48,265 bases of DNA, taken from positions 1 to 48,265 of the forward strand of contig CAMENN010000008.1 in assembly GCA_945928315.1 (NCBI GenBank). The letters run 5' to 3'. The stretch comes from an uncultured Clostridia bacterium (GTDB taxonomy: Bacteria; Bacillota; Clostridia; Christensenellales; Aristaeellaceae). Shown in pieces: positions 1-12,056 of this stretch; within the stretch, counting starts at the first letter, position 1, and each line of letters opens with the position of its first letter. The notes under the pieces are model-generated. The model was given only the letters and a program-made list of their open reading frames with translations, had not been told where the DNA came from and did not search any database. The translations under genes and the position numbers were made by a program.

Positions 1-187
1 CGCTGCGCACAGCCTGCACAATGCGCTTGTATCCGGCGTTGTTCACCACGCTCTTGCCGAACTCGTTGCGGAAGGGCAGTCGCTTGCCCGCCACGTTCAG
101 CACGCAGACCTCGCCGGGCGCGAAGGTGCGCAGGCTGGCGCTCTTGCCGCTGCCGCTCTCGCCCATGATCATCACAATCTCCGCCAT
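1..187 (-). CDS. Phage P-loop ATPase (RecA/Sak4-like), partial
   Basis: The gene runs off the left edge, so only the first 62 residues are visible. A Walker A motif, GESGSGKS, lies at about residues 9-16, followed by an FAPGEVCVLNVAGK strand typical of phage RecA-like NTP-binding proteins found in early modules. Such proteins (Sak4 and relatives) act in phage recombination or replication. The start is supported by a GGAGG about 6 nt upstream. Its ATG overlaps the stop of the 50-aa gene upstream, so the two are translationally coupled. It is the last visible gene of the leftward early operon. The Sak4 assignment is an inference from the N-terminus and context only, because Walker B lies outside the window. 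Confidence 0.75.
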   Translation of the reverse strand, partial: MAEIVMIMGESGSGKSASLRTFAPGEVCVLNVAGKRLPFRNEFGKSVVNNAGYKRIVQAVRS

Positions 188-2915: not shown

Positions 2916-3115
2916 GCGGCCCTCCTGTATCGCACGCGCATGCGCTGGCTGCGCAGCCTTGCAAGGTGCGCGTCCGTGCGCATCGCCGCGGCCGTCGCCC
3001 GGCGCAGTACCTCGCGCTCGCGCTCCGACTGCATCAGGGCCGAAGCCTTCCAGCAGAAGTACGCCATCAGCGCGGCGGCTGCCGCCAGCTGAATCACGAT
3101 CAGGATCTTCATCAT
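2912..3115 (-). CDS. Small single-pass membrane protein (67 aa)
   Basis: The N-terminal 25 residues (MMKILIVIQLAAAAALMAYF) form one hydrophobic segment; the remainder is strongly basic and helical (REREVLRRATAAAMRTDAHL). It could be an anchored cytoplasmic coiled coil. It overlaps by 4 nt with both neighbours (ATGA type on each side), so it is locked into translation with the HTH gene upstream and the 103-aa gene downstream. Function unknown. Confidence 0.55.
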   Translation of the reverse strand: MMKILIVIQLAAAAALMAYFCWKASALMQSEREREVLRRATAAAMRTDAHLARLRSQRMRVRYRRAA

Positions 3116-3396
3116 GCCATTTTCACCTCCTCCATGCTGAGCATCGGGTTATAGGGCACCCCATGCTTTTCAAACAGAAGCACCAGCCGGCGCTCGTGTT
3201 CCTTCGTCATAAGGCCGGGATCCCGCTTCCAGTGCGAAATCGTCGGCTGGCTCACGCCTATCGCCCGCGCGATCTGATCCTGCGTAAGTCCGGTTATGGC
3301 CTTGAAAATATCAAGCTGCTGGGCGTAGCGCCTGTCCGCCTCTTTCCATCTGGCGGCGTTTTGCGCGCTTTCTCCCAGTGGTCTTACCTTGGGCAT
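3112..3396 (-). CDS. XRE-family helix-turn-helix protein
   Basis: A 94-aa protein with a Cro/C1-type HTH at about residues 33-58: ITGLTQDQIARAIGVSQPTI followed by SHWKRDP. It is the first gene of the leftward early operon, so it probably acts as an early or Cro-like regulator. The N-terminus is basic and rich in Ala, and the C-terminal 30 residues probably form the dimer interface. The start has GGGGGAAA upstream. The ATG at 3396 coincides with the -35 hexamer of a convincing rightward promoter (3396-3424), so binding near its own start could switch between the two directions. Confidence 0.75.
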   Translation of the reverse strand: MPKVRPLGESAQNAARWKEADRRYAQQLDIFKAITGLTQDQIARAIGVSQPTISHWKRDPGLMTKEHERRLVLLFEKHGVPYNPMLSMEEVKMA

Positions 3397-4091: not shown

Positions 4092-4114
4092 TCATCCCGC
4101 GAACGATCAGCATG
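4092..4114. repeat. Inverted repeat, left arm (23 bp)
   Basis: This arm begins TCATCCCGCGAACG and is the exact reverse complement of 4286-4308, with 171 bp between the arms. It is too distant for a simple terminator. It could be a recombination or protein-binding site. Confidence 0.85.
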
Positions 4115-4285
4115 TGCAAATCTTTATAAATGACATCTGTATCGCAAAATGAAACGTCTTTATCCGGTTCGACGACTCAAACGTCGACGGAAGTTAAGAA
4201 TTTCTACGCAGCTTCATTCGTAGTTGCGATATGGCGGCCTTTGCCGCCGGACTGCGATCCAACCACTCGCAGCTTTTTCTTGCCT

Positions 4286-5013: not shown

Positions 5014-5172
5014 TCACGCTCCTTTCTGTTCCGCGCTGAGTCCGCGCTCGATGAGCATGCGGAGGATTTCTGCAACAGACGAGCGGCAATACTCGTCAGT
5101 CTTCCGTATCTCCATGACCTTCCTTTCCATTTCGGGGGTCAGGGATACGCTGATCCTTCTGCAATTTGTCAT
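5014..5172 (-). CDS. Small ribbon-helix-helix repressor (Arc/CopG type)
   Basis: A 52-aa protein. MTNCRRISVSLTPEMERKVM forms the beta strand and first helix, and SSVAEILRMLIERGL the second helix, the classic RHH fold that binds DNA as a dimer through its paired beta strands. The start is fixed by AGGAGG 5 nt upstream. It is divergent from the RHH-S24 repressor and has a near-consensus promoter whose spacer is itself an operator palindrome. Its position and size make it the likely Cro-like partner of the switch. The similarity of its helix 2 (LIERGL) to that of the opposing repressor suggests shared sites. Confidence 0.85.
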   Translation of the reverse strand: MTNCRRISVSLTPEMERKVMEIRKTDEYCRSSVAEILRMLIERGLSAEQKGA

Positions 5173-5189
5173 ATAAACCTCCTTTCTAG

Positions 5190-5206
5190 GTGCACCACTC
5201 GTGCAC
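5190..5206. promoter_or_regulatory. Operator O1 (17-bp palindrome)
   Basis: GTGCACCACTCGTGCAC, a near palindrome lying between the leftward promoter and the RHH gene start. It shares its design (GTGnACC-n3-GGTnCAC-like arms) with O2 and O3. Confidence 0.75.
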
Positions 5207-5217
5207 CGTGTGCCCTC

Positions 5218-5246
5218 ATTATAGTGCACCACTGGTTCACCGTCAA
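5218..5246 (-). promoter_or_regulatory. Leftward promoter of the RHH gene
   Basis: On the minus strand TTGACG (5246-5241) and TATAAT (5223-5218) are spaced by exactly 17 bp. The spacer is operator O2 from end to end. Confidence 0.85.
5224..5240. promoter_or_regulatory. Operator O2 (17-bp palindrome) inside the leftward promoter
   Basis: GTGCACCACTGGTTCAC, symmetric as GTGnACCAnTGGTnCAC. It fills the 17-bp gap between the -35 and -10 hexamers, so a bound repressor would exclude RNA polymerase. Confidence 0.8.
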
Positions 5247-5289
5247 GGGGTTTTAAGAAATTTTCGCGCAATTTTCTTTCTGGTGCACC

Positions 5290-5318
5290 TTTACACCAGT
5301 GATGCACTATGTTATAAT
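5290..5318 (+). promoter_or_regulatory. Rightward promoter of the RHH-S24 repressor
   Basis: TTTACA at 5290-5295 and TATAAT at 5313-5318 with a 17-bp spacer, 22 nt before the repressor ATG. The spacer contains operator O3. Confidence 0.8.
5291..5307. promoter_or_regulatory. Operator O3 (weaker 17-bp palindrome)
   Basis: TTACACCAGTGATGCAC keeps the ACCAnTGAT core and one GCAC arm of O2, so it looks like a lower-affinity copy. A further GGTGCACC block abuts it at 5282-5289. It suggests autoregulation of the repressor gene. Confidence 0.6.
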
Positions 5319-5340
5319 GAATCAGAAAGGAGGCGAAATC

Positions 5341-5931
5341 ATGCCTACAGAAAAACCGCGCTTCACCGTCACTGTCAGCGACGACATGAAGCGCAGAATC
5401 GAAGACTATCAGTTTTCCAATCGAATGCGAAACCAGAACCAGGCTGTCAGCCATCTAATCGAACGTGGACTCAATGCAATAGACGAAATCGTCGAAGAAA
5501 ACGAGCCATCCCTACCCATGCACCCTGACATTCTTCCGGTGACAAGACAGCGCATTCCGCTGATCGGGAGCATCGCTTGCGGTGAACCAATCTTTGCAGA
5601 CGAGGATATGTCCGCCTCCATTGCAGTCGACCATCCAGTGGATTGTGACTTTGCGCTTCGATGCAGGGGGGATTCCATGATCGGTGCTCGAATTCTGGAT
5701 GGGGACGTCGTATTCATCCGGAAGCAGGACGTCGTGGATGACGGCTCCATCGCTGCCGTGCTCATTGATGACGATGCCACGCTCAAACGGGTGTATCACC
5801 TCGCCGACGGCCGGGTGGAGCTTCGCGCAGAGAATCCGAAGTATGCGCCCATTGTCATTGGAGGTGAAAACGAAACGAGAATGTGCCGAATCCTCGGTAA
5901 AGCTGTTGCATTCCAGAGCGCTTTAATCTAG
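5341..5931 (+). CDS. Phage repressor: RHH DNA-binding domain fused to S24 LexA-like protease
   Basis: A 196-aa repressor. Residues 7-45 form an RHH domain (RFTVTVSDDMKRRIEDYQFS, then NQNQAVSHLIERGL) in place of the usual XRE helix-turn-helix. Residues about 70-190 form an S24 peptidase: the cleavage motif GSIACGEPIFA (predicted cut C80-G81, as in UmuD), catalytic Ser112 in RGDSM and Lys149 in ATLKRVY. This architecture implies RecA-stimulated self-cleavage during DNA damage, releasing the early promoters. The start has AGGAGG 8 nt upstream. It faces the small RHH gene across three shared operators and precedes AT-rich cargo genes. The domain assignments are clear; SOS induction is known for the family and inferred here. 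Confidence 0.88.
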   Translation: MPTEKPRFTVTVSDDMKRRIEDYQFSNRMRNQNQAVSHLIERGLNAIDEIVEENEPSLPMHPDILPVTRQRIPLIGSIACGEPIFADEDMSASIAVDHPVDCDFALRCRGDSMIGARILDGDVVFIRKQDVVDDGSIAAVLIDDDATLKRVYHLADGRVELRAENPKYAPIVIGGENETRMCRILGKAVAFQSALI

Positions 5932-6772: not shown

Positions 6773-7855
6773 ATGGCTACTGCAAAAAAACTTCCTTCCG
6801 GGAAATGGCGTTGCCGCCCCTCCTATACGGACGAGGACGGTGTCGTCCACACGGCATCCTTCACGGCCGAAACCGCGAAGAAGGCCAACGCGCTTGCCGC
6901 AGCGTGGCAGTCCGGCATGATCGAGGAACGTTCAGTTCCCATCAAAATCACTGTCCGTCAGGCTGTCGAGCAGCATATTGAAACCTGCCGCTGCGCCGGC
7001 ATGTCACCATCTACCATCTACGGCTACAACGTTTGTCTGCGCAATGGCTATGCCCTCATCGCAGATCGCCGCCTGTCCAACCTCACCGCCGCGGACGTCC
7101 AGCGTCAGATCAACGAGCGCGCGAAGACCTGCGCACCCAAGACCGTCTCCAACGAGGTCATGCTCCTGCGTACCGCCATCCGTCCGCACCGTCCGGATCT
7201 GGATCTGTCCCATCTGGTTCTTCCCCACCCGGAACGTCAGGAGATGGTCATCCCCACCGATGAGCAGGTCGAGCGCCTGGTCAGCGCCTCCGCCAACAAT
7301 CGCAACCTGCACCTGTGCATTCTGTTTGCCGCCTTCATGGGTCTGCGCCTGTCAGAGATTCTGGCCCTGTGCTGGGATGATATTGATACCACCGCGAAGA
7401 CGCTGCATATTGAAAAGGCCGCCGTGCGCAGTGAGACAGGCTCCGGTCAGGTTATCAAGGGCACAAAGACGCGGGCAGGCACGCGCGTTCTGCCCATTCC
7501 GGATGCGCTGTATGCCCGACTGATGTCCTTCCGCGATCTGAACAAGCGGATTGTCCCTGCCGCGAACGACACCATTTCAGCGCAATATAGGCACCTGTGC
7601 GACAGAATCGGCATTCCTCGCCGCTTCCATAACCTCCGGCACTATCACGCCTCCGTCATGCTGGCGATGGGCGTCCCCGAAAAATACATCATCGAGGATA
7701 TGGGGCATTCGACGTTCGATATGGTTCGCAACGTCTACGGTCATACCATCCAGAAGAAGCAGATTCTCATCAATCAGGCCATGGCTGCCCATACAGAATG
7801 TATCCTCACCGGAAAGGAAATCAAATATAACGATGCTGAAAACTTGACACGATAA
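6773..7855 (+). CDS. int: Tyrosine recombinase (phage integrase)
   Basis: A 360-aa site-specific recombinase. Residues 1-50 form an AP2-like arm-binding domain (LPSGKWRCRPSYTDEDG), residues about 58-150 a SAM-like core-binding domain, and residues about 160-340 the catalytic domain. Catalytic residues are visible: Arg192 (MGLRLSE), Lys232 (TKTRAG), His286 and Arg289 (HNLRHYH), His312 (GHS) and Tyr322 (NVYGHT). A strong AAAGGAG ribosome binding site fixes the start. It lies at the right boundary of the element, with its 3' end facing the chromosome, so the attachment site should lie just beyond 7855. Length and motifs are normal for the family. Confidence 0.95.
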   Translation: MATAKKLPSGKWRCRPSYTDEDGVVHTASFTAETAKKANALAAAWQSGMIEERSVPIKITVRQAVEQHIETCRCAGMSPSTIYGYNVCLRNGYALIADRRLSNLTAADVQRQINERAKTCAPKTVSNEVMLLRTAIRPHRPDLDLSHLVLPHPERQEMVIPTDEQVERLVSASANNRNLHLCILFAAFMGLRLSEILALCWDDIDTTAKTLHIEKAAVRSETGSGQVIKGTKTRAGTRVLPIPDALYARLMSFRDLNKRIVPAANDTISAQYRHLCDRIGIPRRFHNLRHYHASVMLAMGVPEKYIIEDMGHSTFDMVRNVYGHTIQKKQILINQAMAAHTECILTGKEIKYNDAENLTR

Positions 7856-7980: not shown

Positions 7981-8550
7981 TTACGACGCGGCGATCTCCG
8001 CGCTCTCCAGAATCTCCCGGGCCACGTCGGCGATCCGCCTGCCCGAATCCATGCTCTGCTTCTGAATCCGGTAGTGCGCCTCGGCCTCGCTCAGGTGCAG
8101 CGTGTCCATCAGCCTGCCCTTCGCCCGGTCGACGATCTTGCGGTCCTCCAGCGTGCGCTCGAGCTTGTCCGCCTTCAGGCGCAGCTTCTCCATCCGGCTC
8201 AGGCAGTGCGCCAGCGCGCGGAGTGCCTGCACCAGCGCGTCCTGGCTGATGGGGTTGCGCAGCGTCAGCACGTTGTCCGTTTCCTCGCTCTCCGCATAGT
8301 CCTGCGGGACGATCATCAGCACCTCGCCCGCCTCGCCGAGCCGGCGCGCCAGCTCCTCGCCCGCCATATCCGGCAGGCGGTAGGTCGTCAGCAGCAGCGC
8401 GCCGCTCTGCCCGGCGGCCTCCAGTGCCTGCGCGCCCGCATGGCAGACGCTCGCGGGGGCAATTCCCGCCGTGCGCAGAATTCCGGTCAGCCGGACCGCC
8501 ACGTTCTCCGGGGCCGCGATCACAAGGCGTTCCATGGTCGTCTCACTCAT
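7981..8550 (-). CDS. ANTAR-domain RNA-binding regulator with pseudo-receiver
   Basis: A 189-aa protein: a receiver-like domain at residues about 8-112, a coiled linker (LRLKADKLERTLEDR) and a C-terminal ANTAR domain at about 132-185 (DRKIVDRAKGRLMDTLHLSE, then AHYRIQKQSMDSGRRI). ANTAR domains bind paired hairpins in nascent RNA and prevent termination. The receiver has Thr56 where the phospho-accepting Asp should be (LLLTTYRLPDM), so it is unlikely to be phosphorylated; clostridial ANTAR proteins often show this. It stands alone, downstream of pyrG on the same strand but with its own promoter. Relatives are tied to nitrogen metabolism; the target here is unknown. Confidence 0.85.
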   Translation of the reverse strand: MSETTMERLVIAAPENVAVRLTGILRTAGIAPASVCHAGAQALEAAGQSGALLLTTYRLPDMAGEELARRLGEAGEVLMIVPQDYAESEETDNVLTLRNPISQDALVQALRALAHCLSRMEKLRLKADKLERTLEDRKIVDRAKGRLMDTLHLSEAEAHYRIQKQSMDSGRRIADVAREILESAEIAAS

Positions 8551-8582
8551 ACAGGCATTCCCCCATGCATCGGTATAGGCGT

Positions 8583-8611
8583 ATTATACCAGCCCTTTTG
8601 CGGTTTTGCAA
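8583..8611 (-). promoter_or_regulatory. Promoter of the ANTAR gene
   Basis: On the minus strand TTGCAA (8611-8606), a 17-bp spacer and TATAAT (8588-8583) with a TGG extension before the -10. Confidence 0.75.
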
Positions 8612-8688
8612 GACCAATTTGAATGTTCAGACTATATTTCCTGCATTTTTAACCAATTTCTGACGCGTATCTGAGCATTTCCGGATAT

Positions 8689-10350
<1,662 letters not shown>

Positions 10351-10571: not shown

Positions 10572-12056
10572 TCACTTGTGATAGAGGTTGTTCTTCTCGT
10601 AGGTCGGCTCGCAGGTGATGTTCATGTTGAGGCGCTTGAACACGCCGTCGTCCACCGAGGCGAGGATGACTGTGGAGTGCGCGTCGCAGCCATCGAGCGC
10701 GCTGAGCTGCTGCATGGCGCGCATGGCGTGCTCATCCGACGCGGCGGAAATCGCCAGCGCGATGAGCATCTCGTCGGTGTGCAAACGCGGATTGCGGCTC
10801 TTCATGTAGCCGGTCTTGAGCGTCTGAATGGTGCCGATGACCTCCGGGGAGATGAGCTTGATCTCGTCCGGAATACCGGCCAGCGCCTTGAGCGCATTGA
10901 GCATCGCCGCGGAGGACGCGCCGAACAGGTCGGTTGTGCGGCCGGTGACCACGCGTCCGTCCGGCAGCTCGATGGCGGCGGCGGGCTTGCCCGTGCGGTC
11001 GGCGACGGCCAGCGCCGCAGGCACGACGGCGCGGTTTTCCGGCTCGATCTGCGTCGCCTGCATCAGCAGCTCGATCTTGCCCAGCTCCTCCTGCGTGGCC
11101 AGACCCTGGCGCACGAGGCAGGCGGTCTTGAAGTAGCGGCGGATGATCTCCTGGCAGGAGGCCTCGCGGCAGACGGCGTCGTCCGTGATGGACAGGCCCG
11201 CCATGTTCACGCCCATGTCCGTCGGGCTCTTGTAGGGGCACTCGCCGTAGATGCGCTCGAAGATCGTGCGCAGCACCGGAAAGATCTCGACGTCGCGGTT
11301 GTAGTTGACCGTCGTGACGCCGTAGGCCTCCAGGTGGAACGGGTCGATCATGTTCACGTCGTTGAGGTCCGCGGTCGCCGCCTCGTAGGCGAGGTTGACC
11401 GGGTGCTTGAGCGGCAGGTTCCAGATCGGGAACGTCTCGAACTTGGCGTAGCCGGCCTTCACGCCGCGCTTGTGCTCGTGATAGAGCTGGGAGAGGCAGG
11501 TCGCCATCTTGCCGCTGCCCGGGCCGGGCGCGGTGACGACGATGAGCTGGCGCGTCGTTTCAATATAATCGTTGCGGCCGTAGCCCTCGTCGCTGACGAC
11601 CAGGCGCAGGTCGGCGGGATAGTTTGGGATGGGATAGTGCCGGTAGACCCGCAGGCCCAGCGCGGTCATGCGCTTTTCGAACACGGCGGCGGCGGGCTGG
11701 TCGGCGTACTGCGTGATGACGATGGAGCCGACGTACAGCCCGAAGCCGCGGAAGATGTCGATCAGGCGCATGACGTCGGCGTCGTAGGTGATGCCCAGGT
11801 CGCCGCGGCGCTTGTTCTTCTCGATGTCGCCCGCGCAGATGGCGATGACGATCTCCGCCTGATCGCGCAGCTCCAGCAGCATCTTGATCTTGTTGTCCGG
11901 CTCAAAGCCCGGCAGCACGCGCGAGGCGTGGTAATCGTCGAAGAGCTTGCCGCCGAATTCCAGATACAGCTTGCCGCCGAACTGGCTGATGCGTTCGCGG
12001 ATGCGCTCGGACTGCAGGCGGATATACTTCTGGCTGTCAAAACCGACTTTTCTCAT
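10572..12056 (-). CDS. DUF1846 / UPF0371 family protein
   Basis: A 494-aa cytosolic protein matching the conserved DUF1846 family: the opening KVGFDSQKYIRLQSERIRER, the VTAPGPGSGKMATCLSQLYH loop at about residues 175-195 that resembles a P-loop, and the KFETFPIWNLPLKHPVNLAY block. The family is widespread in Bacillota and structurally characterised, but its biochemical function is not established; the P-loop-like motif suggests nucleotide binding. It is monocistronic with its own promoter and terminator, downstream of nothing informative. Length is typical. Confidence 0.9.
   Translation of the reverse strand: MRKVGFDSQKYIRLQSERIRERISQFGGKLYLEFGGKLFDDYHASRVLPGFEPDNKIKMLLELRDQAEIVIAICAGDIEKNKRRGDLGITYDADVMRLIDIFRGFGLYVGSIVITQYADQPAAAVFEKRMTALGLRVYRHYPIPNYPADLRLVVSDEGYGRNDYIETTRQLIVVTAPGPGSGKMATCLSQLYHEHKRGVKAGYAKFETFPIWNLPLKHPVNLAYEAATADLNDVNMIDPFHLEAYGVTTVNYNRDVEIFPVLRTIFERIYGECPYKSPTDMGVNMAGLSITDDAVCREASCQEIIRRYFKTACLVRQGLATQEELGKIELLMQATQIEPENRAVVPAALAVADRTGKPAAAIELPDGRVVTGRTTDLFGASSAAMLNALKALAGIPDEIKLISPEVIGTIQTLKTGYMKSRNPRLHTDEMLIALAISAASDEHAMRAMQQLSALDGCDAHSTVILASVDDGVFKRLNMNITCEPTYEKNNLYHK

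Follow-up and report, generated by a model that had tools for sequence, protein, structure and literature searches.

A ribbon-helix-helix repressor fused to an S24 protease and its divergent RHH-like partner: a candidate prophage lysogeny switch in Clostridia

Introduction

Can a prophage repressor of the LexA/CI type carry a DNA-binding head of another fold while keeping its self-cleaving protease, and can the small gene that faces it encode a counter-repressor related to that head? The question is raised by a divergent gene pair in a 48,265-nt stretch of DNA from an uncultured Clostridia bacterium, contig C8 of a 2.9-Mb draft genome taken from its first base, which we call the window. An earlier note on this DNA had described the pair as a lysogeny switch built from two ribbon-helix-helix (RHH) proteins. 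We followed up this proposal by analysis of protein families, intergenic sites and gene neighborhoods; the first interpretation proved mostly right but incomplete.

Results

The element and the divergent pair

The first ~7.9 kb of the window resemble one end of an integrated element, with the following genes:
1..187, reverse strand: gene end cut by the contig start, with relatives in the phage-like loci L046 (74%) and L147 (54% identity)
3112..3396, reverse strand: small helix-turn-helix regulator (HTH_3, Phage_CII) of the leftward early region
5014..5172, reverse strand: P0002, RHH-B protein of 52 aa, divergent partner of the repressor (profiles)
5341..5931, forward strand: P0001, RHH-S24 repressor of 196 aa (Pfam, PHROG, family profile)
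6773..7855, forward strand: tyrosine integrase of the element (PF00589, 8.5e-17; PHROG 1, 7.2e-55)

The RHH-S24/RHH-B pair sits between the integrase and the leftward early genes. Past the integrase end of the element, an ANTAR-domain protein is encoded at 7981-8550 on the reverse strand and is followed by a CTP synthase-like gene (by eye); this region is the probable host border. The contig start truncates the element at its other end, and the prophage may have a second immunity region beyond it. Elsewhere in the same genome, three more S24 proteins with XRE-type heads by eye are encoded on contigs C69 (L003), C83 (L004) and C41 (L005), and a LexA-like S24 protein on C108.

An RHH head on an intact S24 protease

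The likely start of the repressor gene is the ATG at 5341 rather than the GTG at 5299, because this ATG is preceded by AGAAAGGAGG and agrees with the family start MPTEKPR. The protein consists of an RHH-A family head (residues 1-50), a short linker and an S24 protease (residues 73-189). Judged from its sequence, the S24 identity of the body is certain: Peptidase_S24 of Pfam covers residues 73-189 (E=4.6e-26), and a phmmer comparison with solved proteins matched LexA structures, the best at 1.1e-15. The cleavage pair C80-G81, S112 and K149 are all present at the positions given in the earlier note, and they make up the cleavage pair and Ser-Lys dyad of LexA/CI-type repressors. S112 is unvaried across a 4-protein alignment, and K149 is retained in its two XRE-headed members.

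Assignment of the head relied on its family. Pfam gave no match to the head when run on P0001 alone; among the 39 members of the head family, it found RHH_1 in 6 (best 0.0016) and Castor1_N in 8 (best 0.028). PHROG 4738, 'transcriptional repressor', matches residues 1-46 of P0001 with E=1.1e-10, and the top three solved matches of a profile of the 39 head sequences are NikR (2e-4), ArtA (1.6e-3) and HicB3 (5.7e-3), all of which we take to be RHH proteins. The family profile and PHROG 4738 place the head in the RHH (MetJ/Arc) class and bear out the proposal that an RHH domain stands where such repressors have an XRE helix-turn-helix.

The divergent 52-aa protein

P0002 is encoded opposite the repressor, at the usual place of Cro, and the term Cro-like given to it by the earlier note holds for this position; in size the protein is nearer to Arc. 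Its weak match to PHROG 3431, 'Arc-like', has E=0.13. The best solved match of the RHH-B family profile is Timeless (0.0063, with no single stretch passing alone), a non-RHH protein, followed by NikR at 0.33; neither Mnt nor Arc is among the solved-structure matches of the RHH-A and RHH-B family profiles. For the 27 RHH-B members, Pfam reported RHH_1 in 3 (best 0.0083), HTH_32 in 2 (0.00098) and Sigma70_r4 in 1 (0.0016). The RHH nature of P0002 is suggested indirectly: hhalign aligns the 27-member RHH-B profile to that of the head across 48 columns (probability 95.9, E=5.6e-9; aligned representatives 25% identical). The RHH-B profile also detects the head of P0001 itself, at 4.1e-5.

The motif LIERGL, pointed out earlier in both proteins, is indeed present in each, at a place that is aligned between the two families. 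Since this is where RHH-A and RHH-B align, common descent is the better reading of the motif, and its interpretation as a special common signature was set aside.

Operators and promoters between the genes

The 168-nt region between the two genes contains three copies of an operator-like 17-mer and two divergent promoter-like sites:
5190..5206, no strand: predicted operator O1, GTGCACCACTCGTGCAC, between the -10 element of RHH-B and its ribosome site
5218..5246, reverse strand: near-consensus promoter-like site of RHH-B, TTGACG (5246-5241), 17 nt, TATAAT (5223-5218)
5224..5240, no strand: predicted operator O2, GTGCACCACTGGTTCAC, exactly filling the 17-nt spacer of the RHH-B promoter
5290..5318, forward strand: promoter-like site of RHH-S24, TTTACA (5290-5295), 17 nt, TATAAT (5313-5318)
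5291..5307, no strand: predicted operator O3, reverse GTGCATCACTGGTGTAA, covering the -35 element of the RHH-S24 promoter and most of its spacer

O1 and O2 are symmetric at 14 of 17 positions; O3, oriented on the other strand relative to them, is symmetric at 10 of 17. The best pair or triple of 17-mers was equalled in none of 300 dinucleotide shuffles. As far as the letters of the DNA can tell, shared repeated operators overlap both divergent promoters, as they do in lambda CI/Cro.

This layout recurs in the family. Both promoter-like sites were found within 3.5 mismatches in 36 of 45 loci; among 450 pairs of shuffled regions, 24 did as well. In these 36 loci, the paired spacers of a locus are on average more alike than shuffled ones (mean likeness 0.667 versus 0.488 in shuffles, s.d. 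0.068; 0.92 in the window). The nine loci that fail the two-promoter test include L115, L128 and L098; L115 and L128, which have RHH-B, show a poor repressor promoter-like site with 4 mismatches. Three loci (L094, L116 and L029) pass the test though no RHH-B was found there.

The strand residues are R-x-T-x-T in the RHH-S24 repressor and R-x-S-x-S in P0002, and by their role in CopG-like proteins they presumably read the DNA. Sites of the GTGRT/AYCAC type were observed in 12 of 17 loci with T or S as the third strand residue and in none of 26 with I or V (2 of the 45 loci, lacking a promoter, were omitted, and eight residues were entered by hand). That the third strand residue varies with operator type is only suggestive, because the motif was picked after looking and the loci are related.

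The RHH-A family and its divergent partner

A pattern scan found the RHH-A head in at least 35 genome loci. The record titles point to Clostridia groups, the exceptions being one 'uncultured bacterium', two 'uncultured Firmicutes bacterium' and two Candidatus names; the family thus appears to occur mostly in Clostridia. The head was also detected in at least 2 IMG/VR contigs, at least 6 of 308 genomes of the host's family, at least 8 of 395 of its order (two of these weak) and at least 7 GenBank phage records from Clostridioides, Geobacillus and Bacillus, where phiCD27 and vB_BhaS-171 are each listed twice. All these counts are lower bounds, because the scans used exact degenerate patterns. 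In the three phage contexts (phiCD27, NIIg9.7 and vB_BhaS-171) the RHH-A genes are all solo. RHH-head relatives in cultured phages (L129, L130, L131) are annotated merely as 'repressor' or 'RHH protein'.

A divergent RHH-B gene lies within ~350 nt of RHH-A in 32 of 37 loci, or in 29 of 34 when the three profile-seed loci are left aside (seeds L006, L007 and L008 are loci L113, L102 and L099), several of the remaining loci being close relatives. In a control set of 65 S24 loci, scanned for ORFs of up to 260 aa, RHH-B occurred in 2, both on one contig, and RHH-A in none. The RHH-B profile does not match the small divergent genes of NIIg9.7 and vB_BhaS-171, two of the three phages whose annotated surroundings were read; by eye, both of these small proteins look RHH-like.

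Bodies behind the head

We collected 46 RHH-A reading frames, namely the 37 loci together with the window, L010, L029, L129-L131, L144, L164 and L165. Four of them carry S24, two have a helical tail alone (L010 and L098, without S24), one is interrupted (L124), and the others are short solo proteins. A search for RHH-headed S24 proteins divergent to small RHH genes, as proposed earlier, thus returned four (the window, L115, L128 and L029), of which three face RHH-B; on this sample of 4 in 46 members, RHH-S24 fusions look rare.

The three other fusions have a helical segment and an S24 subtype different from that of the window. Relatives of this other subtype from IMG/VR (L150-L158) have XRE-type heads by eye and none has RHH; L159 and L160, from the same set of 11 loci, are other proteins. 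The neighborhoods of the fusions are as follows: (i) in L128/L146, RHH-S24 faces RHH-B and a phage terminase is encoded ~11 kb further on, (ii) in L115/L145, RHH-S24 faces RHH-B and a serine recombinase lies one gene off, and (iii) in L029/L148 (genome G261), a profile search found no RHH-B. On the divergent side of L029/L148, collagen-like and other phage-looking ORFs were seen by eye.

Next to the tailed RHH-A gene of L098/L147 stands one for an IrrE-type peptidase; an integrase is encoded 5 kb further on, and ~1 kb behind RHH-B there is an AntA/KilAC antirepressor. The features of L147 at 10656-11207 and 8271-9011 comprise the tailed RHH-A with its IrrE-type peptidase and, on the opposite side, RHH-B with AntA/KilAC. 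This arrangement is a possible RHH counterpart of ImmR/ImmA immunity.

In a tree of heads (49 columns), the six head-plus-body proteins cluster, as a single change would have it, with weak support (48/72). Because this cluster lacks firm support, two histories fit: either RHH heads were put on repressor bodies repeatedly, or one RHH-headed lineage swapped its bodies.

Origin of the S24 body

The S24 half of P0001 shares 74.5% identity over 137 aa with an XRE-headed repressor that the same genome encodes on contig C69, and 71.9% over 146 aa with the XRE-headed repressor of the IMG/VR locus L036. This identity of 72-74% to XRE-headed repressors indicates that repressor heads have been exchanged. 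At the DNA level, identity to both relatives stays close to background over roughly the first 70 codons; beyond them it is mostly higher, apart from a dip at codons 91-100. The XRE-S24 repressor of L036 stands opposite an XRE Cro-like gene, behind which comes an RHH-B relative of P0002; L036 is thereby a possible intermediate of the head exchange. The P0002-like RHH protein behind the XRE Cro-like gene is encoded at 4109-4267 on the reverse strand, and the S24 half of this phage is among the nearest to that of the window.

By eye, none of 47 IMG/VR S24 relatives has an RHH head and all have XRE-type heads (49 loci less 2 near copies, some of the 47 being mutually near copies), and a second IMG/VR scan with a wider head alignment returned L044 again and nothing further. 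Among the GenBank/PLSDB matches, the three examined were ones that extend into the head; all are helix-turn-helix by eye and none is RHH. Matches in 29 genomes of the genus came to 50 rows; 29 S24 loci from these were examined by profile and none had an RHH head, the head of L178 being ambiguous by eye. Another of the 50 rows, outside these 29, is the RHH-S24 protein L029 of genome G261, which brings the number in the genus to two. An RHH-headed S24 repressor that faces an RHH-like protein beside an integrase is uncommon by these counts (0/47 and 0/29), as the earlier note had supposed.

RHH pairs before host-type genes

Solo RHH-A/RHH-B pairs also precede host-type genes, in loci L096, L100, L102, L103, L106, L114, L122, L124 and L127. 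On the B side they encode a TctC transporter receptor, a solute-binding protein, a radical SAM protein with PqqD (RiPP-like), an ABC transporter, a chemoreceptor, and leucine-rich and S-layer-homology proteins; the loci were picked by eye and are a non-random sample, and Pfam was run on 10 proteins from the 9 loci. The RHH-A gene of L124 is broken by a stop. These pairs look like a domesticated two-state switch. We know of no description of them, and a loosely matched literature search gave none among the matches listed, which is weak evidence.

Discussion

Proposed switch and alternatives

We propose that RHH-S24 and RHH-B probably form the primary lysogeny switch of the prophage. The genes, their domains and catalytic residues, the operator copies, their overlap with the promoter-like sites and the recurring plan are observed directly; from these we infer binding, mutual repression, RecA-dependent cleavage and the direction of the switch. 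In the role of CI, RHH-S24 would bind the 17-bp operators as an RHH dimer, with dimers probably paired through their S24 domains, and in the lysogen it would shut the leftward early promoter that drives RHH-B and perhaps tune its own promoter. RHH-B, in the Arc/Cro role and as the first gene of the early unit, would read the same operators and repress the RHH-S24 promoter; the two states would be mutually exclusive because each protein would repress the opposite promoter from the same operators. After DNA damage, RecA filaments would stimulate S24 to cut at C80-G81, the repressor body would be lost, and RHH-B expression and lytic growth would follow.

The effect of cleavage may differ from that in LexA or CI. 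RHH heads normally exist as obligate dimers. Because the head dimerises alone, the 80 residues left after cleavage may still bind DNA, in which this fragment would resemble the solo relatives of 55-72 aa. Induction might then proceed by lost cooperativity or by turnover of the fragment, unlike the loss of dimerisation in LexA or CI.

Other readings of the pair bear on its position, its integrity and the role of P0002. The pair could be a secondary module like immI of P22, with Mnt and Arc counterparts governing an antirepressor and the main repressor encoded elsewhere. Several relatives fit this: phiCD27 has counterparts of both proteins ahead of an annotated anti-repressor, and two 'putative phage repressor' genes lie closer to its integrase; in Geobacillus phage NIIg9.7, a head relative faces a 55-aa gene and then Rha; and L147 has its AntA/KilAC gene on the RHH-B side. 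The window pair, however, adjoins the integrase and its S24 body is that of XRE-headed repressors, while a phmmer search (E 1e-3) of the window ORFs of at least 60 aa in the visible ~5 kb turned up nothing related to the antirepressor of phiCD27 or of NIIg9.7. We therefore hold the secondary-module reading to be unlikely. The primary-switch reading accords with the integrase near the repressor and with the relative of phage genes at the contig start, and further elements of prophage type (L128/L146, L115/L145 and L098/L147) follow a similar plan. Less in its favor are the fourth RHH-S24 locus, L029, where RHH-B was not found, the weak repressor promoters of L115 and L128, the loci that pass the two-promoter test with no RHH-B found, and the indirect evidence for an RHH fold in P0002.

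It is highly improbable, in our judgment, that the locus is a degenerate remnant, a switch kept by chance in a defective prophage or controlling a cargo gene: solo RHH pairs do precede host genes in several genomes and the element is visible in part, but both genes are open, and neither the catalytic residues nor the two promoter-like sites are damaged. P0002 might also be an accessory partner of RHH-S24, acting by mixed dimers or co-repression, rather than a counter-repressor, which would alter one step of the scheme and leave the rest compatible. Its relatedness to the RHH-S24 head, the single operator type at both promoters and the place of RHH-B in L036, after a separate XRE Cro-like gene, would suit this role, whereas the divergence of the families (25% identity between aligned representatives) and the divergent promoters suit opposed roles; we regard an accessory P0002 as quite unlikely.

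A possibly portable pair and its implications

A wider reading, to which we give somewhat less than even credence as a whole, is that RHH-A/RHH-B is a portable switch, mainly of Clostridia, to which phages add bodies and whose bare pair hosts reuse for heritable two-state control. Within this joint and tentative scheme, (i) phage use would be in secondary (immI-like) or primary immunity, (ii) the body behind the head would be S24 of two subtypes, a neighboring IrrE/ImmA-type peptidase, or none, (iii) host use would concern surface proteins, transporters and RiPP-like clusters, and (iv) the window would represent the S24 form, addressable by SOS.

The primary switch, as we read it, indicates that a prophage repressor can trade its head for one of a different fold and keep its SOS sensor, and that the counter-repressor can change along with the head, which suggests that lysogeny switches are composed of interchangeable parts. 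Its self-dimerising head makes testable the textbook assumption that S24 cleavage inactivates repressors through lost dimerisation. The family, moreover, connects phage immunity with the RHH gene pairs that, in Clostridia, precede host genes of surface, transport and RiPP-like types.

Comparison with known systems

Prophage repressors of the XRE-S24 (LexA-like CI) type share the S24 half of P0001 and differ in the head, XRE helix-turn-helix in theirs and RHH in P0001. The logic of lambda CI/Cro is alike, whereas its XRE helix-turn-helix in both repressor and Cro is absent from the window pair.

Mnt and Arc of P22 are both RHH proteins encoded divergently; Mnt, to our knowledge, has no S24 protease. 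The window shows the same plan of two divergent RHH repressors, P0002 being taken as RHH by profile alignment. The immI region of P22 is secondary, whereas the window pair lies by the integrase, probably in the primary immunity position. In the available part of one account, immI has two small repressors that affect each other's expression, one of them made together with the antirepressor (PMC11016777). An antirepressor behind the Arc-like gene occurs in P22 immI, phiCD27 and L147, and none related to those of phiCD27 or NIIg9.7 was found in the ~5 kb visible in the window. In phiCD27 (L129), gp47 and gp48 resemble the window pair in the related head, the divergent RHH-B (1.4e-18), the promoter-like sites and the operator-like spacers; gp47 is a solo protein of 57 aa with an anti-repressor after gp48, whereas the window head is fused to S24. 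The description of the locus as distinct from P22 was therefore half right, because the phiCD27 pair precedes its anti-repressor as Mnt/Arc-Ant do in immI: the divergent RHH pair matches the immI plan, while S24 on one partner and the probable primary immunity position set the window apart.

F55 of the archaeal virus SSV1, as described in the available part of PMC5569661, is an RHH protein that maintains lysogeny and whose level drops after UV; it is a solo protein of 6.3 kDa bound to tandem-repeat sites, and the cause of its loss is given as not precisely known. The same part mentions no protease domain in F55, whereas the window repressor has S24. Closest are L115, L128 and L029, which carry the same head family on S24 and differ from the window in S24 subtype, with RHH-B in two of the three. 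A literature search, covering few subscription journals and including the available parts of PMC10459684 and PMC11172241, found no RHH-S24 repressor. Set beside these systems, the RHH-S24 locus is real and rare and, if it is the switch that we think probable, a new form of a known type of lysogeny switch.
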